Program-made: the position numbers and the translations under genes
Notes under the pieces: model-generated
Told to the model about the DNA's origin: nothing
The model's database searches: none
The model's input: only the letters and a program-made list of their open reading frames with translations
Virus record (IMG/VR): IMGVR_UViG_3300025286_000115
Span: 1-26,421 of that record
Length of the DNA stretch: 26,421 nucleotides
Direction: 5' to 3' (one strand)
DNA from: a virus
Shown: piece by piece, positions 6,642 to 25,746 of the stretch
How positions within the stretch are numbered: the stretch's first letter is position 1
Layout of the letters: the number at the start of each line of letters is the position of its first letter

Positions 6642-9600
6642 TCATAGTTGTATCCAAACCGGCCAGTAATAATCGGTGCCGCCAACGTTAGCAGAAAGGT
6701 ATCCCTCAGGAACCATACCTACCCCAGCCATGTCAAAGAATTCTACTGGACTAACACCACCCCATGTTACTGGAACTAACCCCACCAATGCAGTACCACC
6801 AGTGCCAGCATGTGACATACCAGCGCCACCACCGCCCGTAGTTCCCTGAGTACCTTGAGTTCCTGTAGTTCCTGTAGTTCCAGTTGTTCCCTGAGTTCCT
6901 GTAGTTCCGGTTGTTCCCTGAGTTCCAGTTGTTCCGGTTGTTCCCTGAGTTCCAGTTGTTCCCTGAGTTCCTGTAGTTCCGGTTGTTCCTTGGCTTCCAT
7001 CCAGTCCTTTAATACCCTGAATACCTTGAATACCTTGAGCTCCAGCACCACCTCCACCGGAGACTCCCTGAATTCCCTGAGTTCCTTGAGTACCAGCAGA
7101 ACCATCGTCACCAGTTCTAGTGAAATGATAAACAATATCTTCTCCATCACTAAATGGTGGGTCTGAAAATCGAGCTACAGGAGTAACATCTATCTTGAAA
7201 TAGCCAGTAGCTTCTGTGACTCCATCTACTTGGCAAATGAATAATGAACCATCAGTTGAAGTTCTTGATTGAAATACTAAATGGCCCTCAACACTTGCAG
7301 TACTATCATCCCAGCTTCTCATAAAGAGTTGCATATCTGTTCCATACTGGTCTTCATCATCAATGTATGCTTTTGTTATAGAAAGTGAAGTAGCATGATT
7401 AAATCTAATTACACCATCACCGGGGTCCGAATCAGTAGTCGATGTACTGAATTCATAATTAACTCCTCCTCTATATCCAGCAGTACCAGTCGTTCCTTGG
7501 GTTCCTGTTCCTGTAGTTCCCTGAGTACCCTGAGTTCCAGTTCCACCAGATGTTCCCTGAGTTCCTTGTGTCCCTGCTCCTGTAGTTCCCTGAGTACCTT
7601 GAGTACCAGTAGTTCCTTGGGTTCCTGCTCCTGTAGTTCCCTGAGAACCAGCTGGACCTATATCACCACGTATACCTTGAATACCTTGTGTTCCTTGAGT
7701 TCCTGCTCCTGTAATTCCCTGAGTTCCTTGTGTCCCTGCTCCTGTAATTCCCTGTATTCCTTGTATACCTTGCGTTCCCTGTGTTCCTGCTCCAGTTATT
7801 CCCTGAATTCCCTGAGTTCCTGTAGTTCCCTGAGTTCCCTGTGTTCCTGTAGTTCCCTGTGTACCCTGTGAACCCGCAGGTCCGGGCGCTCCGTCGGCAC
7901 CCTGAGTTCCAGCACCAGTCGTTCCTTGAGTTCCCTGACTACCCGGAGTACCCAAAATACCCCGTGTTCCTTGAATACCTTGTATTCCTTGAGTTCCCTG
8001 TGTTCCAGTAGTTCCCTGTGCTCCAGTTATTCCCTGAATTCCTTGAGTGCCCGTTATACCTTGTGTTCCTTGAGTTCCTGTTCCTGTAATTCCTTGAATA
8101 CCTTGAGTTCCTTGAGTACCAGTATCACCTTTAATACCCTGAGTTCCTTGAGTACCAGTAATTCCTTGAATACCTTGAGTTCCTTGAGTACCAGTATCAC
8201 CTTTAATACCTTGAGTTCCTTGTGTGGAGTTGTCTGCACCATCCGTCCCTTGGATTCCCTGAGTTCCCTGAGTTCCTGTAGTTCCGGTTGTTCCCTGAGT
8301 TCCTGTAGTTCCGGTTGTTCCTTGAATTCCTTGTATTCCTTGAATTCCTTGCGCACCCCTTATACCCTGAATTCCCTGAGTTCCTGTAGTTCCCTGAGTT
8401 CCCTGTGTTCCTGTAGTTCCCTGTGTGCCAGTAGTTCCTTGAATTCCCTGAGTACCAGTAGTTCCTTGAATACCTTGAGTTCCTTTATCACCAGTTCTAC
8501 TAAAGGATAAAGTAATTCTTTCACCATTACTAAATGGTGGATTACCTGAGCCAACTAATGGGTCAACATCTATCTTGAAATAGCCTGAAGCCTCTGTAAC
8601 TGAATCTACCTCCATCGATGCGTATGATGTATCACTACCATCAGCAGATTGTATGATTATAACACCTTCTACTGTACTAGATGAATCGTCCCATGTACGC
8701 ATCCAAGCTTGTTGGTCATTACCGTCTTCGTCGGTGTCATCAATAAATATTTTAGTAACACTAGCAAATGTAGTGTGATTAAATCTAATGTCCCCAGCGC
8801 CGGGGTCGGCATCAGTGGTGGAAGTATCAAATGTCCATGCTGTTCCACCTCTATAACCTGTAGTTCCTGTAATTCCTTGTATTCCTTGAGTTCCTTGAGT
8901 ACCAGTAGTACCTTGAGTTCCCTGTGTTCCTGTAGTTCCTGTAATTCCTTGTATTCCTTGAGTTCCTTGAGTACCAGTAGTGCCTTGAGTTCCCTGTGTT
9001 CCAGTAGTTCCTGTAATTCCTTGTATTCCTTGAGTTCCTTGAGTGCCTGTATCACCGGTATCACCCTTGATGCCCTGAATACCCTGAGTTCCTTGAGTAC
9101 CAGTAGTACCTTGAGTTCCCTGTGTTCCAGTAGTTCCTGTAATCCCTTGTATTCCTTGAGTTCCTTGAGTACCAGTAGTACCTTGAGTTCCCTGTGTTCC
9201 AGTAGTTCCTGTAATTCCTTGTATTCCTTGAGTTCCTTGAGTACCAGTAGTACCTTGAGTTCCCTGCGTTCCCGTATCACCCTTTATGCCCTGAATACCC
9301 TGAGTTCCTTGAGTTCCTGTCGTTCCAGTTATACCTTGGATACCTTGAGTTCCTTGAGTACCAGTAGTGCCTTGAGTTCCCTGTGTTCCAGTAGTTCCTG
9401 TAATTCCTTGGATACCTTGAGTTCCTTGAGTACCAGTGGTTCCTTGAGTTCCTTGAGTACCAGTAGTTCCTTGAGTTCCTTGAGTACCAGTAGTTCCTTG
9501 AATACCTTGTATTCCTTGAGTTCCTTGAGTTCCCTTATCACCAGTTCTAGTAAATTCTAGGACACATTGCTCTGCCGAAGAAAATGGTGGGTCACCTGAA

Positions 9601-12479
9601 CCTACTACTGGAGTAACATCTATCTTCCAGTAGCCTGTAGCTTCAGTAATTCCTGTTACCTGCATCGAAGCATATGAAGCATCCGAACCATCTGCCGACT
9701 GTATTATTATAGTACCTTCAATGGTACTAGTAGAATCATCCCAAGTTGCATACCACGCTTGCTGGTCAGTACCATCCGCGTCTACGTCATCTATATATAG
9801 TTTAGTTACAGAAGCAAAAGTTCCGTTGTTTAATCTAAAGTCGCCCGCGCCGGGGTCTGCGTCTGTTATAGTATTATCGAAGTTATATCTAGTTCCCCCT
9901 CTTATTCCGTCAGCTCCTTGAGCCCCTTGTGAACCACCAGTTACAGTACCCTCTGTTCCTTGTATACCTTGTATACCTTGCGTTCCTTGTAAACCTTGAA
10001 TACCTTGTGTACCTTGAGTTCCCTGTGCTCCAGTCGCACCTGTAATTCCTTGAGTTCCTTGAGCGCCCGTTATACCTTGAATACCTTGAGCTCCCGTAAT
10101 TCCTTGAATACCCTGAGCTCCTGTATCTCCTGTCGTTCCTTGAGTTCCCTGAGTGCCTTGAGCGCCCGTTATACCTTGAATTCCCTGAGTTCCCTGAGTT
10201 CCTGTATCTCCTGTCGTTCCTTGAGTTCCCTGAGTGCCTTGAGTTCCTGTCGTTCCAGTTATACCTTGGATACCTTGAGTTCCTTGAGCACCCGTTATAC
10301 CTTGTATTCCTTGAGTTCCTTGAGTACCAGTATCACCTTTAATACCCTGAATTCCTTGAGCACCAGTAGTTCCCTGAATACCTTGTATTCCTTGAGTTCC
10401 TTGAGTACCAGTAGTTCCTTGAATACCTTGTATTCCTTGAGTTCCTTGAGTACCAGTATCACCTTTAATACCCTGAATTCCCTGAGTTCCCTGAGTTCCC
10501 TGTGCTCCAGTCGTTCCTTGAGTTCCTTGAGTACCAGTAGTTCCCTGTGCTCCAGTCGTTCCTTGAGTTCCTTGAGTACCAGTAGTTCCTTGTATTCCTT
10601 GAGTTCCTTGAGTACCAGTAGTTCCTTGTATTCCTTGAGTTCCCTGTGTACCCGTAGTTCCTTGCGTACCCTGAGTTCCTTTATCTCCAGTTCTACTAAA
10701 TTCTAAAATACATTCTTCTGCATTAGCAAAAGGAGGATTAGCAGACCCAACAACAGGAGTAACTGTAATCTTATAATATCCTGTCGCAGCCGTTACAGCA
10801 GTTACTTGCATCGAAGCATATGAAGCATCAGAACCATCTGCTGATTGTATTATTATAGTACCTTCTACAGTACTACTAGAGTCGTCCCACGTATCATACC
10901 AGTCCTGCTGGTCTGTACCATCCGCATCGACATCATCTATATATAGTTGTGTAACAGAAGCAAACGTTCCGTGATTTAACCTGAATACTCCCGCGCCGGG
11001 GTCCGCATCGGTAGTCGTAGTCGAGAAGTCATATCTAGTGCCACCTCTTATACCCTCAGTTCCTTGAGTACCAGTAGTTCCTTGAATACCTTGTGTTCCT
11101 TGAGTTCCCTGTGTTCCAGTAGTTCCTTGAATTCCTTGAGTACCAGTAGTTCCTTGAGTTCCTTGAGTACCAGTAGTTCCTTGAATACCTTGTATTCCTT
11201 GAGTTCCCTGTGTTCCAGTCGTTCCTTGAATTCCTTGAGTACCATCTGTACCTTGAGTACCAGTTGCACCTTGAGTTCCTGTTATACCTTGGATACCTTG
11301 AGTTCCTTGAGTACCCGTAGTCCCCTGAGTTCCTGTAGCTCCTTGAGTACCAGTAGTTCCTTGAATACCTTGTATTCCTTGAGTTCCTTGAGTACCATCA
11401 GTTCCCTGAGTTCCTGTTGTACCTTGAATACCTTGAGTTCCTTGAGCACCAGTAGTTCCTTGAATACCTTGGATACCTTGAGTTCCCTGTGTACCAGTAG
11501 TTCCTTGAGTTCCTTGAGCACCAGTAGTTCCTTGAGTTCCTTGAGCACCAGTAGTTCCCTGTGTACCTTGAGTACCATCTGTACCTTGAGCACCAGTTAT
11601 ACCTTGAGTTCCCTGAGTGCCCTTATCTCCAGTCTGGACAAAGGAAATTACGCAATCGTCGCCATTAGTAAAATTGTCGTTATGGTCTATATAATCTACT
11701 TGTACTTCTTCATAAACGTTAACTCCCGTGCCCCCAGCTACATTAGCACCTGTAATATCAAATATCACCCATACAGCAGAATCAGTAGCTTTACTTATCT
11801 TTATGTGCCCGCGCGTAGCACTATCACCATTATCTAAAGTATCGTTCCATGCACTTACATCATCACTATTTATATCATAGTCGGATATACCCACCTTTGT
11901 TATTAGAGTATAATCAGGGGGCCCAGAAACGGGCACTGCAACATTAAATCCAAAATTAGTTTGGCCCGGTGAACCAGCAGTAATATCAAAACTACTATAA
12001 TTAAATTCTTGGCTATCGCCTCCGAATATTCCTCTCGTTCCTTGTACTCCTTGTGTGCCTTGAGTACCCTGTATACCTTGAGTACCCTGTATACCCTGTG
12101 TGCCTTGAGTACCAGTAGTTCCTTGAATACCTTGTATTCCTTGAGTACCCGTAGTTCCCTGCGTCCCAGTAGCTCCTTGAGTTCCTGTAGCACCTTGAGA
12201 GCCTGTAGTTCCTTGTGTACCTTGAGTTCCCTGAGCAGCTACCGCGCCCGCAGTACCTTGAACACCTTGTGTGCCATTCGTACCTTGTATACCTTGTGTA
12301 CCTTGAGTACCTTGAGCCCCACCAACTCCAGTTAAAGCAATTCTTACATCAGGAGTGTTGGTATTTTTTAAAGTTAGTTTTTTATTAGTTGAATTCCAAG
12401 TAGCGTCATATAGATAGGAACGCCAAGCTACCGGAATTGCCTGTTTAGTTTTTGACCTTAACGCTTTAGTTCCCCTCAT
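6642..12479 (-). CDS. Giant collagen-like fibre protein with five beta-rich domains (1945 aa)
   Basis: The N-terminal 50 residues (starting MRGTKALRSK) are followed by hundreds of uninterrupted Gly-X-Y triplets, mostly GTQ, GIQ, GTT and GAQ, with almost no proline. The triplets are broken by five domains of about 115-130 residues near positions 150-281, 477-596, 858-981, 1208-1330 and 1670-1790. Domains 2-5 share DADPGAG (or SDPGDG), IDD-x-DxDG-x-DxQ and TWDDS motifs; all five end in TGDKG or a close variant. The C-terminal 65 residues after GGGGAG are globular (GTDYYWPVW) and may trimerise or bind receptor. Collagen-like triplets form trimeric rods in many viral fibres. The gene sits between the capsid gene and the connectors, not beside tail-tip genes, so it may be attached to head or neck. 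The start follows AAGG; the next gene overlaps or closely follows. Confidence 0.88.
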   Translation of the reverse strand: MRGTKALRSKTKQAIPVAWRSYLYDATWNSTNKKLTLKNTNTPDVRIALTGVGGAQGTQGTQGIQGTNGTQGVQGTAGAVAAQGTQGTQGTTGSQGATGTQGATGTQGTTGTQGIQGIQGTTGTQGTQGIQGTQGIQGTQGTQGVQGTRGIFGGDSQEFNYSSFDITAGSPGQTNFGFNVAVPVSGPPDYTLITKVGISDYDINSDDVSAWNDTLDNGDSATRGHIKISKATDSAVWVIFDITGANVAGGTGVNVYEEVQVDYIDHNDNFTNGDDCVISFVQTGDKGTQGTQGITGAQGTDGTQGTQGTTGAQGTQGTTGAQGTQGTTGTQGTQGIQGIQGTTGAQGTQGIQGTTGTQGTDGTQGTQGIQGIQGTTGTQGATGTQGTTGTQGTQGIQGITGTQGATGTQGTDGTQGIQGTTGTQGTQGIQGIQGTTGTQGTQGTTGTQGIQGTTGTQGTQGTQGIQGTTGTQGTEGIRGGTRYDFSTTTTDADPGAGVFRLNHGTFASVTQLYIDDVDADGTDQQDWYDTWDDSSSTVEGTIIIQSADGSDASYASMQVTAVTAATGYYKITVTPVVGSANPPFANAEECILEFSRTGDKGTQGTQGTTGTQGTQGIQGTTGTQGTQGIQGTTGTQGTQGTTGAQGTTGTQGTQGTTGAQGTQGTQGIQGIKGDTGTQGTQGIQGIQGTTGTQGTQGIQGIQGTTGAQGIQGIKGDTGTQGTQGIQGITGAQGTQGIQGITGTTGTQGTQGTQGTTGDTGTQGTQGIQGITGAQGTQGTQGTTGDTGAQGIQGITGAQGIQGITGAQGTQGITGATGAQGTQGTQGIQGLQGTQGIQGIQGTEGTVTGGSQGAQGADGIRGGTRYNFDNTITDADPGAGDFRLNNGTFASVTKLYIDDVDADGTDQQAWYATWDDSTSTIEGTIIIQSADGSDASYASMQVTGITEATGYWKIDVTPVVGSGDPPFSSAEQCVLEFTRTGDKGTQGTQGIQGIQGTTGTQGTQGTTGTQGTQGTTGTQGTQGIQGITGTTGTQGTQGTTGTQGTQGIQGITGTTGTQGTQGIQGIKGDTGTQGTQGTTGTQGTQGIQGITGTTGTQGTQGTTGTQGTQGIQGITGTTGTQGTQGTTGTQGTQGIQGIKGDTGDTGTQGTQGIQGITGTTGTQGTQGTTGTQGTQGIQGITGTTGTQGTQGTTGTQGTQGIQGITGTTGYRGGTAWTFDTSTTDADPGAGDIRFNHTTFASVTKIFIDDTDEDGNDQQAWMRTWDDSSSTVEGVIIIQSADGSDTSYASMEVDSVTEASGYFKIDVDPLVGSGNPPFSNGERITLSFSRTGDKGTQGIQGTTGTQGIQGTTGTQGTTGTQGTQGTTGTQGIQGIRGAQGIQGIQGIQGTTGTTGTQGTTGTTGTQGTQGIQGTDGADNSTQGTQGIKGDTGTQGTQGIQGITGTQGTQGIKGDTGTQGTQGIQGITGTGTQGTQGITGTQGIQGITGAQGTTGTQGTQGIQGIQGTRGILGTPGSQGTQGTTGAGTQGADGAPGPAGSQGTQGTTGTQGTQGTTGTQGIQGITGAGTQGTQGIQGIQGITGAGTQGTQGITGAGTQGTQGIQGIRGDIGPAGSQGTTGAGTQGTTGTQGTQGTTGAGTQGTQGTSGGTGTQGTQGTTGTGTQGTTGTAGYRGGVNYEFSTSTTDSDPGDGVIRFNHATSLSITKAYIDDEDQYGTDMQLFMRSWDDSTASVEGHLVFQSRTSTDGSLFICQVDGVTEATGYFKIDVTPVARFSDPPFSDGEDIVYHFTRTGDDGSAGTQGTQGIQGVSGGGGAGAQGIQGIQGIKGLDGSQGTTGTTGTQGTTGTQGTTGTTGTQGTTGTTGTQGTTGTTGTTGTQGTQGTTGGGGAGMSHAGTGGTALVGLVPVTWGGVSPVEFFDMAGVGMVPEGYLSANVGGTDYYWPVWIQL
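6840..12330 (-). repeat. Collagen-triplet coding repeats (9-base and 18-base units)
   Basis: The DNA consists of long runs of near-identical nine-base units encoding Gly-Thr-Gln or Gly-Ile-Gln, arranged in 18-45-base higher-order repeats, interrupted by the five non-collagen domains. Synonymous codon changes (GGTACT, GGAACT, GGCACT) keep the copies from being identical. The units are in frame and of constant period, so recombination between them would change fibre length without breaking the frame. Long Ser/Leu/Thr/Cys-rich open frames on the opposite strand are by-products of this repeat. Confidence 0.85.
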
Positions 12480-12564: not shown

Positions 12565-13659
12565 CTAAACGTTGATAATAACTACGCCAGACATCGGGCT
12601 TGTGACCTTCAGTCCGTATCTCATCGACATGTAAGAACCAACAATTCCGAAACCGGGGTTTGCCTCTTCTACAGTCAATGGTCGCCTTTCAACGTACGAC
12701 ATAGGCTTTACGCTGCTGTCCCACATGAATATCCTATCAGGAGGGCACCATGCGTTGGTAGTGATGGTTAGACCATATATGCTACCTACGACAGCTGTTC
12801 CTATAGTATTCTTGAAAGGAGCAGTTTCCTCAACAACATACGGGAATCCGTAGCTGGCAGTTGTGCCAGAAATTGCTGTGGTAAAGTCTGCCAAGTTCAA
12901 TAGAGTCTTGTAGTGCGCTGGGGATATCATTAGGGAGTCAGCATTAAAGCCGTGTCCGCCAATAAGTTCCATAGCTGTGGTTAAGTCTCCTAGGGAGAGC
13001 TCACCGTCGCCTGCTCCGCCAGCTGCGGTTACATAGTGACCTGTTTGAAGCGTGCCTGAAGCAGTTAGACCATACGAATAGTTACGTCCGACATTAATTT
13101 CGGAACCACTACCTAGGAAACCACCGTAAACATTATCGCTAAAGTCTACAATGTTAGCCTCAGTTGTGGCTGCTACGATGCTAGCTCCGTCAACACCCGT
13201 TCCGAACGTGGAGTCTAGGATACCGAGCAACGCATAAACAACGTGCTTAGTCATATGACGGTCTACCGCCCTGCGTGCTTCATTCAAAGCCATCTCGACT
13301 TCATTGAAACGTGAATCTTCAATCATACGACGTGTAACGCCCATAGCCAGTCCCCACTCGCCTACTGATACTCTCTCGGAGCGCAGATTAGTGTGCTGGT
13401 ATTGTGGTGTGTTACCTTCGTTGATTTCTTCCATACCCATGGAAGGCTTTGCGAATGTGATATCAATATCACCGCCAGTCTCTGTGGTCATAGGTTCTGT
13501 AAACATTGCCATCGCAGCAAGGTCTGTGACCTTGTAGTCTTTGATTGCATCTTTATAGTCTATGAGTACACGTTCCCCTGTTCCACCAGTCGCTGCGTAA
13601 GCGCCAGTGTTAAGGGAAGTAAGAAGACCGGGTGCTAAATTCTGAGTTAGTGCTACCAT
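12565..13659 (-). CDS. Major capsid protein, HK97 fold
   Basis: A 364-residue protein from ATG 13659, preceded by AGGTGAT at a four-base spacing; a GTG nine bases upstream is less likely because it falls inside that site. The N-terminal part (MVALTQNLAPGLLTSLNTGA) lacks a large scaffold domain, consistent with a separate scaffold upstream. The middle shows a long spine-like helix (NEVEMALNEARRAVDRHMTKH) and the end has MSYVERRPLTVEEANPG and MRYGLKVTSPMSGVVI, typical of the P-domain and C-terminal strands of HK97-type capsid proteins. It follows protease, scaffold and decoration genes and precedes a hairpin region. Assembly into the head, with the portal at one vertex, is the expected role. 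The subfamily is not determined. Confidence 0.85.
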   Translation of the reverse strand: MVALTQNLAPGLLTSLNTGAYAATGGTGERVLIDYKDAIKDYKVTDLAAMAMFTEPMTTETGGDIDITFAKPSMGMEEINEGNTPQYQHTNLRSERVSVGEWGLAMGVTRRMIEDSRFNEVEMALNEARRAVDRHMTKHVVYALLGILDSTFGTGVDGASIVAATTEANIVDFSDNVYGGFLGSGSEINVGRNYSYGLTASGTLQTGHYVTAAGGAGDGELSLGDLTTAMELIGGHGFNADSLMISPAHYKTLLNLADFTTAISGTTASYGFPYVVEETAPFKNTIGTAVVGSIYGLTITTNAWCPPDRIFMWDSSVKPMSYVERRPLTVEEANPGFGIVGSYMSMRYGLKVTSPMSGVVIINV

Positions 13660-13675
13660 AATAATCACCTACCCC

Positions 13676-19976: not shown

Positions 19977-20295
19977 TCTTTTCCTCTTCGTGTTCGTGTG
20001 TGTCTTTCCCGTTACGGAACGTACCCTTACGGGTCTGTTCTATCTGACTGTTCTGTTGAGCAGTCCATAATTCTAATACCTTATATATAATAACGAGGGC
20101 GGGTGAACCTATAATCAGAAGAACTGATTTATATGATTCTATATCTTGTACTACTTCAGGGTGGTTAAAGGCCATCGTTACTAAGAAGATAGATAAGCCT
20201 ACCCAAGCCATCACAACTGGGGCTGCTACTATTATCATCATGAAGTTAGCAAAATTACCATCTGGTGAAATCGCATCGGGTTTATCATTATTCAT
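19969..20295 (-). CDS. Two-span membrane protein, possible holin (108 aa)
   Basis: Two hydrophobic segments are visible, about 18-43 (MMIIVAAPVVMAWVGLSIFL) and 59-78 (VLLIIGSPALVIIYKVLELW), followed by a charged tail (KGTFRNGKDTHEHEEEKNE). Two spans, about 100 residues and a strongly charged C-terminus are the general features of class II holins. The gene overlaps the upstream surface protein as ATGA and the downstream coiled-coil microprotein by eight bases. A holin in an archaeal virus would serve exit by a mechanism not known to me. A membrane scaffold role is also possible. The assignment rests on topology only. Confidence 0.55.
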   Translation of the reverse strand: MNNDKPDAISPDGNFANFMMIIVAAPVVMAWVGLSIFLVTMAFNHPEVVQDIESYKSVLLIIGSPALVIIYKVLELWTAQQNSQIEQTRKGTFRNGKDTHEHEEEKNE

Positions 20296-21167
20296 GCTGG
20301 TGCCTCCACCCTTATCATGGGAATATCAAATTGCTGCTGGAATACATAATCCTCAGATTCCGCATCCCATACAAGCAATGCTACCCACATGGACCATGTA
20401 CCATTTGTTTCGTTGAGTTCCTCGTAAGTGAAGTTCAACCAGTGGTTGTCCCAATCCATACCATTGACGGTCATGTATAAGTCAGTCCAGTTATAATCAC
20501 CTGATTCTGCGTGCCATACGTCTACATAAAGTAGTACAGATGTATTAAAATCGTAACAATCTGTGTCTATGTCTGTTAGTACAGATATACCATCAGCTTC
20601 GGGGTCTACCCAGAAAACAGATGCATTATCCAACTCTTCGTTATACCACCCCGGATAAAAATGTACAGATGTATGATTACCGTGTTCTTCCTCATACTCA
20701 TCTTCGTAATCGCATGAACCATCATCTTCAGTAGCCTTATCATCGTAATTGTTAGCTTCCATATCCATACAACCATAGATAGCTGCGGTTTCATTCGCAG
20801 TACCATTAGGGTTGTCAGTTATGACTACACAACGGCCATCATCGTGCGTAGCATTCACCTGATAGTTTTCAGCTTCAGGATTAGTGCATCCATATACAAC
20901 TACCAGAAACGTGCAACTACCATCTTCAAAAGTTGCATCAGCATTGTAATTGGTCGCCTCAGGGTCCTTGCAGCCACCGATGGGTCCTGTATCTTCGCCA
21001 TTGAAATAGTCCTGTATAATTGTTAAATTAGCTCCACCACTAAGTAATGCAAGCATTAGAATGGTTATTATAGCGCCAATGCGCTTACCAACAGAGGTTT
21101 CCCCCAGCTTGTCAGCAGCTTTGCCAACAACTTCAAAGAGACCCTCATCCTCGTCAGGAGAGTTCAT
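20292..21167 (-). CDS. Membrane-anchored protein with three calcium-type GC-DPEA-NY-DDGSC repeats
   Basis: A 291-residue protein. A polar N-terminus precedes one hydrophobic anchor (about 29-51, RIGAIITILMLALLSGGA). Three copies of a 21-residue repeat follow at about 65-85 (GCKDPEATNYNADATFEDGSC), 93-113 and 132-152, each with two cysteines and acidic loops, as in thrombospondin-3-like or marine DSL-type repeats. The remaining part (170-291) is acidic, Trp/Tyr-rich and beta-like (LLYVDVWHAESGDYNWTDLY). Many N-x-S/T sites are present, so it is probably outside the cell or virion and may be glycosylated. Its leaderless promoter implies separate control. Such repeats are frequent in Poseidoniia surface proteins, which suggests host origin or mimicry. 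Attachment, exclusion or adhesion are possible roles. Confidence 0.72.
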   Translation of the reverse strand: MNSPDEDEGLFEVVGKAADKLGETSVGKRIGAIITILMLALLSGGANLTIIQDYFNGEDTGPIGGCKDPEATNYNADATFEDGSCTFLVVVYGCTNPEAENYQVNATHDDGRCVVITDNPNGTANETAAIYGCMDMEANNYDDKATEDDGSCDYEDEYEEEHGNHTSVHFYPGWYNEELDNASVFWVDPEADGISVLTDIDTDCYDFNTSVLLYVDVWHAESGDYNWTDLYMTVNGMDWDNHWLNFTYEELNETNGTWSMWVALLVWDAESEDYVFQQQFDIPMIRVEAPA

Positions 21168-21205: not shown

Positions 21206-22183
21206 CTAATCAAACTCCGGAAACTGTGTCTGGACATCAAGCTCTATTTGGCCTTTCAACTTAGGGTCAATGTCAGCATAGGTCTCTTTGCTCTTCTTAT
21301 ACTTAGGTTTCCATGCAGGAATAACCACATCGCACGGCCCACCGTTATGCTGCTTATTAAACGAACACCACTTACAGAGATTCTGGGGTATCTGCTCATA
21401 GCGGTCCTCATACTCTTCGCGTTCCCTTATAGCGTCGTGTACCATTTTAATTACATCACGAGCCTCATCAAGCACTTGTTGATTGACCTTCACGAAGAAG
21501 GTATCATCAAAGCGGAGATAGTTAACGCCCACAAATTTCGGCATTTCGCCCATCTCTAATGTGTACAAGAATGCATATATAATCAGCTGGCGATAATAAT
21601 CCTCTGGGAGGTATGCACCATAGCGCTTACTGGTCTTGTAGTCCAGCAAAGTAGTGCCACCATCGAAGTCATTACACACTGCATCAACAATGCCTATTAC
21701 TGCGTATTCCTTAGACTTGACCCACTTCTCAGCATACTTAGGAGCTACCGAGTTCCATGCCTGATACTTGTTCTTATATATCTTCCACTTCACCATCTCG
21801 GTTAATTTCTTGTTGACACTCTTAACAAAGTTTTGTAGTATGTCCTCTGTCTCAGTATACATTGCATCCATCTCGGCCTTAGTGTGTATTTCCCAGAGCC
21901 ACTTATGGCAAGCTATCTTTTCTTCCCAACCTTTCTCGAACTCACCCTGTATCCACATACTTGGGGCTCCCTTCTCCCACGCCGTCATATTCTTAAATTG
22001 ATATTTAAATAGTCGTTCTAGAATCTTGTGTACCAGACTTCCACGGAATAGATGTATAGTCTTCTTCTCAGGAATCTTAGCTATGTACTTGTAATAGAAC
22101 TCGCGCGGGCACTTCATGTAGGTATTTATCTTTGATGGACTCAGTCTCATATGGCTTGGTTCCCATTTCATTTCTTTGGTCAT
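21206..22183 (-). CDS. PD-(D/E)XK nuclease, Cas4/RecB-like, with probable iron-sulfur cluster
   Basis: A 325-residue protein. It opens with LSPSKINTYMKCPREFYYKY, the common N-terminal motif of Cas4/AddB-type nucleases. Probable catalytic residues are H52 (LVHKILERL), D167 (GIVDAV), and D181/K183 (LLDYKTSK), with the Q-x3-Y motif QLIIYAF at about 199-203. Cys25 plus three C-terminal cysteines (LCKWCSF at 270/273 and GPC at 284) form the classical four-cysteine iron-sulfur pattern. All key residues are present. The likely role is single-strand exonuclease or end processing for viral recombination, replication or host DNA degradation. No Cas1/Cas2 gene or CRISPR array is present, so a link to CRISPR adaptation is not supported. 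It is two bases downstream of the oxygenase gene. Confidence 0.85.
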   Translation of the reverse strand: MTKEMKWEPSHMRLSPSKINTYMKCPREFYYKYIAKIPEKKTIHLFRGSLVHKILERLFKYQFKNMTAWEKGAPSMWIQGEFEKGWEEKIACHKWLWEIHTKAEMDAMYTETEDILQNFVKSVNKKLTEMVKWKIYKNKYQAWNSVAPKYAEKWVKSKEYAVIGIVDAVCNDFDGGTTLLDYKTSKRYGAYLPEDYYRQLIIYAFLYTLEMGEMPKFVGVNYLRFDDTFFVKVNQQVLDEARDVIKMVHDAIREREEYEDRYEQIPQNLCKWCSFNKQHNGGPCDVVIPAWKPKYKKSKETYADIDPKLKGQIELDVQTQFPEFD

Positions 22184-22185
22184 TT

Positions 22186-22974
22186 TTAATATACTCCTGT
22201 TATATTTGTATTGTCATCATTCGCATCTTCGGTATCGAAGAAGAAAATTTGAAATAGTCTATCATTGTCAATAGCATCTCCAAAATATTGGGATGCGGCA
22301 TGGATTAATCTAGCATCAAATATCATTAATCTATTATAAACATTCCCTATAGTATCTACTTTTTCAAATGGGGTCTCATCAAAGAAGTTCTCTTTAAACA
22401 TAGTCCAACCTTCCATTTCTCTAACTGAGTTTACTTTAGTTTCTTTATGTCTATATAGAGAAGTACCACATTCAGGTGGAGCATCGGGTGTAAGATAAAT
22501 CATCGCCGCCCATTGCTGAGTATCCGCGTGTATTACAAAAGGGTCTTCCGCCATACAGTGTTGAAATACTCCATTGGTTTGGTAGTCCCATCCACCAATC
22601 TCTGTACCTTCTTTCATTTTACTTCGGAGTAAGCTTTCAAATTCTTTCTTTACTCCTTTGAAGTGTTTATGTTCTAATGTTCTATGTCCCACGGCACCGT
22701 GCTCTCCTCGTGGAACAAAGTCACCACTCATTGCATAATCTCTAACTGCGTCTGGGTCATCATAAAAATTGTCTACCACAATAATTGACGGCATCCTTTT
22801 TGTGGGATGTACATCTTTTACCGATTCTTCTAATAGCTCTTCTATACTCATGTCTTCCAGTTTAGTCTTCATCTTCTGGGATTCCTTATATTCTTTTACT
22901 GTCATTCCTAAGTCCTTCATTTCTTTATAATCTTCTCGGGAAATATATACTGGTTCAGGCATTCCCGGTATCAT
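22186..22974 (-). CDS. 2OG-Fe(II) oxygenase-like protein (DUF6445-type)
   Basis: A 262-residue protein. The first 60 residues are helical and charged (DYKEMKDLGMTVKEYKESQK). The conserved part starts at IIVVDNFYDDPDAVRDYAM and holds the double-stranded beta-helix motifs: H149-x-D151 in FVIHADTQQWAAMIYLTP, then GTSLYRHKE, the distal H225 in RLIHAASQYFG, and R239 in DNDRLFQIFFF. HxD...H plus an Arg is the iron and 2-oxoglutarate binding set of this superfamily. The DUF6445 relation is from memory of that family (FYxDPxxVRxYA). Related proteins occur in marine phages; the substrate is unknown. Here it lies between TPR and nuclease genes and may modify a protein or glycan. GAGGA seven bases before ATG 22974 supports the start, which overlaps the TPR gene by 20 bases. 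Confidence 0.75.
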   Translation of the reverse strand: MIPGMPEPVYISREDYKEMKDLGMTVKEYKESQKMKTKLEDMSIEELLEESVKDVHPTKRMPSIIVVDNFYDDPDAVRDYAMSGDFVPRGEHGAVGHRTLEHKHFKGVKKEFESLLRSKMKEGTEIGGWDYQTNGVFQHCMAEDPFVIHADTQQWAAMIYLTPDAPPECGTSLYRHKETKVNSVREMEGWTMFKENFFDETPFEKVDTIGNVYNRLMIFDARLIHAASQYFGDAIDNDRLFQIFFFDTEDANDDNTNITGVY

Positions 22975-23623
22975 CTTTCTTCCTCTTTTCCATTATCTTA
23001 GCTATAATAGCTGCTTTATCTGTAATAGGCTCTTTATTAGATTCTGGCTGGTGTCTTCCAGCTAAGTTATCTCTATTCCATTTTACATGTCCTTTATATT
23101 CTGCATTTAAATCGGGGTTATCTGCTAAGTCATCAAAGAGCGTTCTAGCTTCATCAAATTTCCCAACCCACCATGCTGAGACTGCTCTTTGAAAGGGTAG
23201 TCCATAATAGCCCGGATAACCACACGGGGTGCTCAATGGGTCAATTCTCTGACGTTCTACATAATCACTTAATATTTCTCCAGCACAAGCCCAACTATAT
23301 GATGAATGCCATTCACCACACAGTTCATATGCTATACTAAGTAAGTGATAAGCTTCTGGTCTCTGAGGTAATAAGGCTATAGCTAACTGGGCTGTAGATT
23401 TCATGTGTGTCTCTCTACCTCCTTGCTTTCTAAAACATATAGCTTTGCGTAATAAACACTCATAAGCTAATAACTTGTTGTCAGTTAGCTCTGCACATTT
23501 AAGGTAAAATCCCATGGCAGACGCTGTTTGCCCCTTGAGTTCATACTCATATCCAATAGCGAAGCTATTTTCTGGTACATGTGGGGTTTCAATGTACCTT
23601 TCTAGACTTTGTTGTAATGACAT
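22955..23623 (-). CDS. TPR-repeat protein of glycan-module type
   Basis: A 222-residue protein with successive helix-turn-helix units: ENSFAIGYEYELKGQTASAM, LLAYECLLRKAICFRKQGGR and PEAYHLLSIAYELCGEWHSS, which fit TPR spacing with Ala/Gly at the packing positions. The latter part (PCGYPGYYGLPFQRAVSAWW and GKFDEARTLFDDLADNPDL) resembles the C-terminal TPR half of glycosyltransferases encoded by cyanophages, pelagiphages and giant viruses, but the GT domain itself is missing here. The basic tail ends KRKKDDTGNA. It lies two bases after the radical SAM gene and overlaps the oxygenase gene by 20 bases. It probably acts as an adaptor for the neighbouring enzymes. The relation to the glycosyltransferase family is from memory. 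Confidence 0.65.
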   Translation of the reverse strand: MSLQQSLERYIETPHVPENSFAIGYEYELKGQTASAMGFYLKCAELTDNKLLAYECLLRKAICFRKQGGRETHMKSTAQLAIALLPQRPEAYHLLSIAYELCGEWHSSYSWACAGEILSDYVERQRIDPLSTPCGYPGYYGLPFQRAVSAWWVGKFDEARTLFDDLADNPDLNAEYKGHVKWNRDNLAGRHQPESNKEPITDKAAIIAKIMEKRKKDDTGNA

Positions 23624-23625
23624 AT

Positions 23626-24543
23626 TTATATCACGAATCCTTGCGATTTTGCATAAGTTTCATAAGGGCTATCAGGTATGGGGTCTATACCATTCTCACA
23701 CCGCATACACATATCATATGTAGTATTGGGTGGGGGAAGTATATCATCATACTCTTCTGTATATAGGTTTCCTAAAATCTCTTCTAAATTATAATCCATA
23801 CAGCATAAAGATACTTCTCCATTAGGTAACAAAATATTATGGTAAAGGTCTTCTATACACCCGCATGTCTTTTCTGTATTATGGAGAATAGATTTGAATC
23901 TGTCCCATACTTCTCTAACTTCAGGTTTGAGAGCTGCTTCTCCTAGAAGATTTCCAGCTCTGTGCCACATTTCATATTTATTAACTGTCCTATCAGGAAA
24001 GATAGGTTCTACTTCCTCATGCACTGTCCCCATGGACATTGTCATGAAATTATTAATATTAGCAGCTTTAATCGCCCAGTATACTTGAATGAGCGTCTTA
24101 TTTACAGGATGCTTAGCTAACCTCTCTAAGTCAGGTAAATGCAGGGTAAACCCCCCATTAGGGCCCCCTACAAAAGGAATGTCCTTTATTCTATCAACAT
24201 CTTTAAGAGTCATCCCTACAGCTGTAGTAAACACTGATATAGGATGTCCTTGCTCATGAGCATAAAGCAGCATGTCTGTACACTTCTTATTTAACCATGG
24301 TTCAGTAAACCCTGAAAAGGTTATCCTAATCTCTTTAGGAAGTTTATCTATTACCATCTTGAAATCCTCGAGACTCATATATCTCTCCTTTTCTGTGGTA
24401 AACTTTTCTTCGTTCCATACTTTCTGGAGAACTCTTTGAGGACAGAAGACACAATCTACGATACATCCTACCTTAGGAATTGATGTAGTTATCTCTAAGG
24501 TAGGCCATTCGGTAATTTTCCAGTAGTCCTTCATTTCTTCCAT
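23626..24543 (-). CDS. Radical SAM enzyme with SPASM-like C-terminal cysteines
   Basis: A 305-residue protein. The N-terminal strand LEITTSIP leads into C27-IVD-C31-VF-C34, the CxxxCxxC site that binds the [4Fe-4S] cluster and SAM. GFTEPWLN at about 78 matches the GGEP-like position for the SAM amino group. The C-terminal region holds CGC (about 226/228), CCMDY (about 246/247) and CMRC (about 279/282) together with LLPNGEVSLCC and ILGNL, the usual context of SPASM or twitch auxiliary clusters. Such enzymes modify peptides, carbohydrates or nucleotides; viral copies are rare. It overlaps the GH130-like gene by 13 bases, and the TPR gene follows after two bases. The substrate cannot be read from the sequence. 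Confidence 0.85.
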   Translation of the reverse strand: MEEMKDYWKITEWPTLEITTSIPKVGCIVDCVFCPQRVLQKVWNEEKFTTEKERYMSLEDFKMVIDKLPKEIRITFSGFTEPWLNKKCTDMLLYAHEQGHPISVFTTAVGMTLKDVDRIKDIPFVGGPNGGFTLHLPDLERLAKHPVNKTLIQVYWAIKAANINNFMTMSMGTVHEEVEPIFPDRTVNKYEMWHRAGNLLGEAALKPEVREVWDRFKSILHNTEKTCGCIEDLYHNILLPNGEVSLCCMDYNLEEILGNLYTEEYDDILPPPNTTYDMCMRCENGIDPIPDSPYETYAKSQGFVI

Positions 24544-25592
24544 TCCATAATCTCTTCAAAGAACTTTTCAGTAATAGTTGTTAGATAAGCTGAGTTATCT
24601 TGGAACCCAAAAGTTATAAGAAGATTTTTGTTATCAGGATGCATAGCCATTCCACAGGCGAACTCTATACGTCCGTCCATAAATTTAAATGGTTTAGATT
24701 TACCTACCACGTTCCATTTCTTATCCCACGCCAGAAACCTGTGGTAATAGTGAGCGTCTCTATCATCTTTTTCATTATGCCAGTAATCACATTCATGCGT
24801 GCAAGCAATTCTATAGTCACCGTAGGGTATCACTTGGGAACCCCCACGAGGGTCTAACTGTAAAGGTAGTTTAGTTTCTTCTTCTCCACGGAATACCACT
24901 TTGCTCGGGCAGCGGTATTTCTTTGGGTTGTTCTTCCATTTCTTATTAATGTCCACCTTTACTATTTCAATAGGGTTTGACCATTTTACATAGTGGAAGG
25001 GCATATCTAATATAGGCATCCAATTCTTTTCACAATATACATCGGGACCATCAGGAGCTTCTATAACATATCGACCCACTTCTTTGACCATCTTACCAGT
25101 TATTTTAATTTCCGATAATACCATGCGTCCAAGACCCTTGGGTGCATAACGACGTACACCAGTAATGTACATCTTACCTTCCCACTCTACAAGACGACCA
25201 TCTTCTAATCCAACAAAATCCCATTCGGGTTCTTTAGGAAACTTACTTGTATCTATCTTGCGCGGGCGACCAACCTTACGGATTTTATCTAAGCTATAAT
25301 CACATATATAGTTCTTTGTTCGTAAGTATGGGTCATTATCCGGTCTTACATAATTGAGGGGGCCCCATGGAGTCTGAAACTTCTGGTCTCCCTCACAATG
25401 ATGTAAGTAGTAAGATACGTGTCTTATGTTTAACAGGTAATTCGGGCTATTAGGAATTTGCCAAATCGACGGGTTGCATAATCCCATCCCGCCTGTTTCT
25501 TTGCTATCTATCGTTAGAGGTACTACAGTTCCTCCATTCTCTAATATTTGTGGTATTAAAGACTCTTCCATTAACTCATCCATTTCTATCAT
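24531..25592 (-). CDS. GH130-like beta-propeller glycosidase/phosphorylase fold protein
   Basis: A 353-residue protein whose repeats look like a five-bladed propeller: GLCNPSIWQIPNSPNYLLNI, GLEDGRLVEWEGKMYITGVR, YVKWSNPIEIVKVD, RGGSQVIPYGDYRIACTHE and FACGMAMHPDNKNLLITFGF. The paired GLEDGRL and CGMA...LLITFG-QDN motifs resemble GH130-type mannoside phosphorylases and related phage and giant-virus glycan proteins. E and D residues in GLEDGR are candidates for the active site; whether it is catalytic is not certain. It starts at ATG 25592, or at Met4 (25583), inside the zinc-finger microprotein frame. Being joined to rSAM, TPR and oxygenase genes by overlaps, it probably belongs to a glycan-modifying set. 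The fold assignment is from motif memory. Confidence 0.7.
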   Translation of the reverse strand: MIEMDELMEESLIPQILENGGTVVPLTIDSKETGGMGLCNPSIWQIPNSPNYLLNIRHVSYYLHHCEGDQKFQTPWGPLNYVRPDNDPYLRTKNYICDYSLDKIRKVGRPRKIDTSKFPKEPEWDFVGLEDGRLVEWEGKMYITGVRRYAPKGLGRMVLSEIKITGKMVKEVGRYVIEAPDGPDVYCEKNWMPILDMPFHYVKWSNPIEIVKVDINKKWKNNPKKYRCPSKVVFRGEEETKLPLQLDPRGGSQVIPYGDYRIACTHECDYWHNEKDDRDAHYYHRFLAWDKKWNVVGKSKPFKFMDGRIEFACGMAMHPDNKNLLITFGFQDNSAYLTTITEKFFEEIMEWKK

Positions 25593-25746
25593 TAGTAAAC
25601 TCCATTTCGCCTTCCATTACAAGTTTGGCGGTGTTCCATATACATTCATCGTGGGCTGCACCATCTGGACGAAAGACGGCACCTATTGGTCCGCCTGCCT
25701 TAAATTCATCACCACATACAAAGCATTTCTTTTTACTTAGCAGCAT
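25576..25746 (-). CDS. 56-residue zinc-finger microprotein
   Basis: ATG 25746 starts MLLSKKKCFVCGDEFKAGGP, with C8-x2-C11 and later H32-x2-C35 (AAHDECIW), a treble-clef or CCHC-type zinc site. The rest is short (NTAKLVMEGEMEFTND). It overlaps the preceding coiled-coil gene by 10 bases and the propeller gene by 17 bases, so three genes are interlocked. Small zinc proteins like this often bind nucleic acid or act as protein adaptors; the spacing CxxC-x20-HxxC is close to zinc-ribbon-like phage proteins. No function can be given. The overlaps on both sides, and the intact zinc ligands, support it as a real gene. Confidence 0.65.
   Translation of the reverse strand: MLLSKKKCFVCGDEFKAGGPIGAVFRPDGAAHDECIWNTAKLVMEGEMEFTNDRNG

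Follow-up and report, generated by a model that had tools for sequence, protein, structure and literature searches.

Gene content of the locus

Here we analyzed a stretch of viral DNA of 26,421 nucleotides (IMG/VR record IMGVR_UViG_3300025286_000115, positions 1 to 26,421; hereafter the window), a tailed-virus fragment of 26.4 kb, from an archaeal-type ocean virus, that carries terminase, portal and major capsid genes. The analysis concerns four consecutive genes, which an earlier reading made without database searches (the sequence-only reading) had singled out as an interlocked module serving one pathway:

24531..25592, minus strand: propeller of 353 amino acids (aa), five-bladed, of GH130/GT108 type, putative glycosyltransferase or phosphorylase; core gene of the cassette
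23626..24543, minus strand: radical S-adenosylmethionine (radical SAM)/SPASM enzyme, 305 aa, with the CxxxCxxC codons at approximately 24442-24465; tailoring step
22955..23623, minus strand: tetratricopeptide repeat (TPR) protein, 222 aa, with weak TPR profile matches; obligate partner of the propeller
22186..22974, minus strand: 2-oxoglutarate (2OG)-Fe(II) oxygenase (DUF6445), 262 aa, with a prolyl-hydroxylase-like fold and an HxD...H motif

All plausible genes of the window lie on the minus strand, and in order of transcription they comprise an open reading frame (ORF) of 71 aa, a Cys-rich ORF of 56 aa, the propeller, radical SAM/SPASM, TPR and oxygenase genes and a PD-(D/E)XK exonuclease gene, followed by small genes, terminase, portal, capsid and then, directly, a collagen-like protein of 1945 aa. 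According to the ORF calls, the Cys-rich ORF and the propeller overlap by 17 bp, the propeller and the radical SAM gene by 13 bp, and the TPR and oxygenase genes by 20 bp; gaps of 2 bp separate the radical SAM gene from the TPR gene and the oxygenase from the exonuclease.

Identity of the cassette proteins

The propeller matched no Pfam family at E ≤ 1, thus falling short of the cut-off of the GH130 family (PF04041), and yielded neither a PHROG family nor a significant NCBIfam family. Its AlphaFold2 model (predicted local distance difference test score, pLDDT, 82; predicted template modelling score 0.87) has the five-bladed beta-propeller fold of GH130, and the 21 best structural matches of this model all belong to GH130 or GT108 (Z 18.0-21.5, 265-281 residues aligned, root mean square deviation 3.4-4.5). 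The best Foldseek matches were MPT-4, MPT-1 and MPT-2, and the nearest solved structures are GH130 mannoside phosphorylases and Leishmania GT108 mannosyltransferases. Residues E130-D131 of the propeller ('GLED', near positions 25200-25205) are invariant in an alignment of 19 homologues. A weak profile alignment (E 0.24) sets this GLED on the GLED of 9fj8, which makes it a candidate for the catalytic Asp motif (GxED) of GH130. When profiles were compared with those of Bacteroidota GH130 proteins, the sole resemblance was weak and local, confined to the C-terminal 'F..G...YYG.AD' motif. Because these sequence matches are weak or absent, the GH130-type assignment rests on the predicted fold. Two annotated cyanophages call the propeller 'beta-mannosyltransferase' and 'MGP protein', presumably by automatic annotation.

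The propeller family is essentially viral. It occurs in at least 590 viral contigs, and a search of 84,980 cellular species genomes returned eight matching contigs, four of which have long flanks bearing what appear by eye to be T4-type phage structural genes, the others being short. As the four long-flank contigs look misbinned, we excluded them from the cellular count. These contigs (L053, L055, L056 and L057; FZLS01, DGBH01) had been assigned to Rhodobacteraceae or Bacteroidetes by binning, but their sheath, terminase and neck genes look T4-type, so that they appear to be misbinned phage; several radical SAM genes lie upstream of their propeller-TPR pair, and in three of them a TagD/RfaE-like nucleotidyltransferase follows it.

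The radical SAM enzyme passes the Pfam cut-offs for both of its domains (PF04055, 31.7 bits against 29.5; SPASM, PF13186, 24.7 against 21.5). Its CxxxCxxC motif corresponds to C27, C31 and C34, which are invariant over 19 homologues, as are the auxiliary cysteines C227, C247, C248, C279 and C282, with C229 nearly so. A PDB profile search returned BtrN as the sole match (E 0.007). BtrN oxidises a cyclitol alcohol; the match agrees with oxidation of a sugar, yet it is not strong enough to assign the reaction of the viral enzyme.

The oxygenase passes DUF6445 (PF20043; 1.1e-11, 45.6 bits against a cut-off of 24), and its iron triad, H149-x-D151...H225, is invariant over 14 homologues. The AlphaFold2 model (pLDDT 73) places 2OG hydroxylases at the top of the structural matches, with PHD2 and P. 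putida P4H at Z about 11.5, so that alignment and predicted fold show both the HxD...H triad and the double-stranded beta-helix of 2OG-Fe(II) enzymes. It also matches phrog_1644 (2.4e-35), labelled 'minor coat protein', which is probably a misannotation or else a hint of virion association.

In the TPR protein the repeats are visible and divergent, with the best match (PF07719, E 9e-4, 19.6 bits) below the Pfam cut-off of 27; the protein is a probable scaffold or substrate-binding subunit. Relatives carry an FkbM methyltransferase (PF05050) between the radical SAM and TPR proteins, or fused to them. In the window, where the two genes are only 2 bp apart, it is absent, and this virus has lost what is usually a fifth component.

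The features named by the sequence-only reading were therefore largely recovered: its overlaps and gaps are exact to the base in the ORF calls, the radical SAM cysteines are intact and the oxygenase motif is present. The TPR repeats are real and weaker than a Pfam assignment demands, and the GH130-like propeller is borne out by the modelled fold and not by any Pfam match.

The cassette genes form one functional unit

We examined 65 dereplicated viral propeller loci, drawn from homologue scans and hidden Markov model censuses. The TPR protein accompanies the propeller, fused or adjacent, in all 65, and the FkbM methyltransferase is present at 53. The radical SAM enzyme occurs at 25 loci and the oxygenase at 24, frequencies that are biased by the way the loci were collected, part of them with the radical SAM enzyme as query and the remainder as the propellers most similar to that of the window. 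Junctions within the loci are tight (median -4 bp; 74 of 89 within 20 bp), and active-site residues are invariant in relatives at 40-90% identity.

Twelve fusion architectures combine the cassette domains, including propeller~FkbM~radical SAM, propeller~TPR~FkbM, TPR~radical SAM~oxygenase and propeller~oxygenase, together with TPR~FkbM~radical SAM in Synechococcus phage DSL-LC02 and TPR~FkbM~oxygenase in phage S-SCSM2R. That the domains are joined in this way argues strongly for a shared action. The recurrence of these genes side by side is not due to chance, and that they form one functional unit is strongly supported. In one locus (L031:7958-10388) propeller, FkbM and radical SAM are split into separate ORFs that are a single ORF in near-identical loci, owing to a frameshift or an assembly error.

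The single pathway proposed by the sequence-only reading is hence borne out by co-occurrence, fusions and cassette behaviour: its genes are not scattered independently in relatives, nor are their active sites degraded in most homologues. The exact set of four genes is not the essential unit. The core is the propeller with the TPR protein, FkbM is the usual companion, and the radical SAM enzyme and the oxygenase are frequent tailoring parts; we rejected these two as required components, both being optional in relatives.

The cassette lies in a slot of variable content

The slot that holds the cassette is delimited by two genes:

25576..25746, minus strand: Cys-rich ORF, 56 aa; left border of the slot, outside the cassette itself
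21206..22183, minus strand: PD-(D/E)XK exonuclease, 325 aa (PF12705, 1.9e-24; synteny in relatives), a conserved core gene of the virus; right border of the slot

In relatives L149 and L152 the slot is empty, with the ORF at 25737, the Cys-rich ORF and the exonuclease present and no cassette in between, and three other relatives (L211, G102 and G113) have no cassette ahead of the exonuclease. In L148 and L185 the region holds a propeller and a TPR~WavE protein, accompanied by a transaldolase and an NTP-transferase/kinase protein. Of the latter pair (L148:3069-5787; L185:2950-5626), one is a transaldolase/fructose-6-phosphate aldolase; the other has matches to NTP-transferase, HAD and APH kinase domains and is a possible nucleotide-sugar supply line in a single protein. 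An HtrL/YibB protein lies in this region in L197. Elsewhere, at L066 (1253-2971), propeller and GT25 domain are parts of one protein, GT25 being the family of the animal collagen galactosyltransferases. The partners swapped in are, overall, GT25, WavE, GT2, HtrL/YibB, transaldolase and NTP-transferase/kinase (sugar nucleotidyltransferase) proteins. As these are families of glycan biosynthesis, glycan chemistry is the best common denominator; glycan modification is the likely function of the cassette, and we propose that the cassette is exchanged horizontally among viruses.

Next to the exonuclease lies a predicted membrane-anchored protein (20292-21167) with repeated Cys/Asp-rich 'GC.D.EA.NY...A..DDGSC' motifs, conserved in the lineage. 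A database match sought for the capsid protein of the window was not found, and database relatives of its portal were confined to haloarchaeal tailed viruses, with identity of about 22% (a weak match). This similarity is the only clue to the host; assignment to a host among Marine Group II (MGII) archaea is unconfirmed.

The cassette tracks Thr-rich, Pro-poor collagen

Two further genes bear on the target of the cassette:

6642..12479, minus strand: collagen-like fibre, 1945 aa (PF01391, 2e-156), directly downstream of the major capsid gene; proposed substrate
12565..13668, minus strand: major capsid protein (PF25209 above cut-off); reference point for the position of the fibre gene among relatives

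The fibre of the window contains about 400 Gly-X-Y triplets (148 GTQ, 69 GTT, 62 GIQ) and almost no Pro. Position X is Thr in 58% of triplets, and position Y is Gln in 59% and Thr in 27%, with Lys at Y in 11 of 400. Collagen-like genes are present in 41 of 50 cassette-bearing records. Among 50 T4-type control contigs four carry a collagen and one a cassette, the contig with the cassette being one of the four, which leaves collagen in 3 of 49 cassette-free controls; the controls are shorter on average, and the ratio to the cassette-bearing records is accordingly not exact. Gene position offers a firmer control. Of the loci from outside the window lineage, 29 of 41 have a collagen gene at most 3 kb upstream of the cassette, co-oriented in 28 and often at a distance of 29-60 bp, and none of 45 has one at most 3 kb downstream; in Synechococcus phage DSL-LC02 the cassette adjoins a collagen gene.

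Within the window lineage, all eight cassette-bearing genomes have a collagen fibre after the capsid gene, and all four cassette-free genomes have a different fibre there (collagen in 0 of 4; Fisher P = 0.002, a nominal value given that the compared lineages are related). One of the cassette-free genomes, the 81-kb contig G102, has a capsid protein 87% identical to that of the window. The ends of this contig (81,208 bp; L306-L309) overlap, with exonuclease-region genes at both, which suggests that the genome is nearly complete at about 77 kb; the protein encoded after its capsid gene is 2909 aa long and not a collagen.

Composition of the collagens provided a further comparison. In those of 34 cassette loci, median Pro at X/Y is 0.9% and Thr+Ser 42%. 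The propeller was present on 26 of the 50 viral contigs picked for GTQ repeats alone, on none of 50 picked for GPQ repeats, and on 2 of 46 collagen contigs picked regardless of X, both proline-poor. The cassette therefore tracks Thr-rich, Pro-poor collagen and not collagen generally. Within the set L324-L393 there are long Thr/Gln-rich collagens (for example L340, L349, L353 and L365) with no recognisable cassette in the sequenced flank.

Discussion

We think it probable, on the whole, that the locus is a horizontally exchanged viral glycoprotein-modification cassette acting on the virus's own Thr-rich collagen-like fibre. The own fibre, already suspected as a target in the sequence-only reading, is most likely and best supported in view of the gene neighbourhood, the co-variation within the lineage and the contrast between GTQ and GPQ contigs. 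For the transferred sugar, its acceptor atom and what the radical SAM enzyme and oxygenase do, we propose the following. The TPR protein would bind the fibre chain or hold the enzymes together, and the propeller, judging by its modelled fold, would transfer a sugar to Thr of the Gly-Thr-Gln/Thr repeats or to a first sugar already there; by analogy the donor could be mannose from GDP-mannose or a sugar phosphate. Subsequent oxidation, hydroxylation or O-methylation of the glycan or side chain would be the work of the radical SAM/SPASM enzyme, the oxygenase and, in most relatives, FkbM. The outcome would be a fibre that is soluble and stiff without proline, and possibly a virus-specific, rapidly diversifying sugar coat that influences adsorption or recognition. 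The stronger version of this idea, namely an independent, virus-specific system of collagen glycosylation in which propeller and TPR protein O-glycosylate Thr, sugars replace (hydroxy)proline and the radical SAM enzyme, oxygenase and methyltransferase diversify the glycan, we put forward tentatively and would sooner doubt than assert.

Several observations weigh against a fibre-modifying cassette. About 10 kb, including the capsid and packaging genes, separate cassette from fibre gene in the window lineage. Some GTQ-collagen contigs have no propeller despite several kb of flank, and some propeller loci have no collagen nearby (the misbinned phage contigs L052-L057; G015 and G031), so that the link is strong and not obligate. 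The likeness of the propeller to GH130 in sequence falls below Pfam detection. Lastly, the oxygenase is prolyl-hydroxylase-like, yet the fibre is nearly proline-free, which disfavours classical prolyl hydroxylation.

In the main rival the cassette alters, during infection, a glycan of the host surface (that of the O-antigen, the S-layer or the membrane), for instance to exclude other viruses, its linkage to fibres reflecting a shared host-recognition region. In pelagimyophages the host-recognition regions do contain, close to tail fibres, radical SAM cassettes as well as glycosyltransferases, and the glycosyltransferases were read as modifying the host O-chain (PMC7029224); lipopolysaccharide-family glycosyltransferases (WavE, GT25) are among the partners found here. 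We nevertheless hold this unlikely, since the linkage is specific to Thr-rich collagen (0 of 50 GPQ contigs, 2 of 46 with any X) and not to fibres or collagens generally, a collagen gene in the same orientation immediately precedes the cassette, and viruses whose hosts are unrelated (cyanophages and an archaeal-type virus) share these enzymes. Somewhat less likely still is a different virion substrate (capsid, tail or another fibre) for which collagen would be a correlated trait. The loci without nearby collagen do adjoin other tail proteins (L052-L057) and PHROG 1644, matched by the oxygenase, bears its coat-protein label, but in the window lineage the swap of fibre type tracks the cassette while the capsid gene is unchanged.

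Synthesis of a small molecule or of a modified peptide, of the kind of ribosomally synthesized and post-translationally modified peptides, for host takeover would draw on the fact that radical SAM/SPASM enzymes commonly act on peptides. It seems very improbable to us, as no precursor-peptide gene is conserved beside the cassette, the constant partners are only the TPR protein and FkbM, and the swapped-in ones are glycan enzymes. The sequence-only reading had offered synthesis or remodelling of a glycan or a peptide, and host-cell takeover besides; the glycan is the better supported product, and the peptide and takeover proposals gained no support. We give the least credence of all to hypermodification of viral DNA bases by hydroxylation and subsequent glycosylation. 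A 2OG oxygenase with a glycosyltransferase follows the known logic of phage DNA modification, but this oxygenase is of the prolyl-hydroxylase/DUF6445 type, the cassette is located with fibre or packaging genes and not with replication genes, and close relatives without it keep the same core genes.

The cassette appears to be virus-specific and previously undescribed: in the open-access literature we found no paper describing this gene set, in agreement with the sequence-only reading, nor one naming DUF6445; the one paper found on GT108 was unrelated, and the DSL-LC02 phage paper does not mention the module. Prokaryotic collagens, including those of phages, are generally held to be mostly unmodified (PMC8968730). 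If our interpretation is true, co-inheritance of this widespread cassette with long Thr-rich, Pro-poor fibres would explain fibre stability, a new viral glycoprotein-processing pathway would emerge in which radical SAM and 2OG enzymes possibly act on a glycan in unprecedented ways, and microbial viruses may possess a means of glycosylating collagen that is unrelated to ours. A large class of virus genes so far without annotation would receive a name and a function, and the system, which is directly testable, would offer enzymes for producing recombinant modified collagen.

Comparison with known systems

The viral propeller shares with GT108/GH130 enzymes (Leishmania MPT-1, MPT-2 and MPT-4 and mannoside phosphorylases; 6q4w, 6q4x, 6q50, 9fj8) the five-bladed fold, and its GLED is a possible counterpart of their catalytic Asp motif. 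It differs from them in having no significant sequence similarity, in being confined to viral or virus-like contigs and in always being paired with a TPR protein. Phage-encoded glycosylation of virion proteins is known from mycobacteriophages (Freeman 2023, as cited in PMC12619734), where the targets in that account are capsid and tail-tube proteins and no collagen-linked fused enzyme set figures in it.

The nearest parallel for a virus encoding collagens together with the enzymes that hydroxylate and glycosylate them is Mimivirus (PMC9546862). There, in a giant virus infecting amoebae, a collagen lysyl hydroxylase/glucosyltransferase hydroxylates and glycosylates Lys in Gly-X-Lys. Here, in bacterial and archaeal-type viruses, the repeats are Thr-rich and Pro-poor and the proteins are a GH130-like propeller and TPR, radical SAM and FkbM proteins; none of the window proteins scanned with Pfam matched a lysyl-hydroxylase family.

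BclA of the Bacillus exosporium (PMC6222408, PMC8968730) resembles the viral fibre as a Thr-rich prokaryotic collagen-like filament, which bears an oligosaccharide ending in O-methylated anthrose. It is unlike it in being a spore protein with proline at X. To our knowledge no propeller, TPR or radical SAM system accompanies BclA. In Riftia collagen, galactosylated threonine contributes to collagen stability (PMC10141479), in this case in an animal collagen modified by host enzymes. Riftia (PMC10141479) and BclA (PMC8968730, PMC6222408) are therefore precedents for collagen Thr carrying sugars that aid stability.

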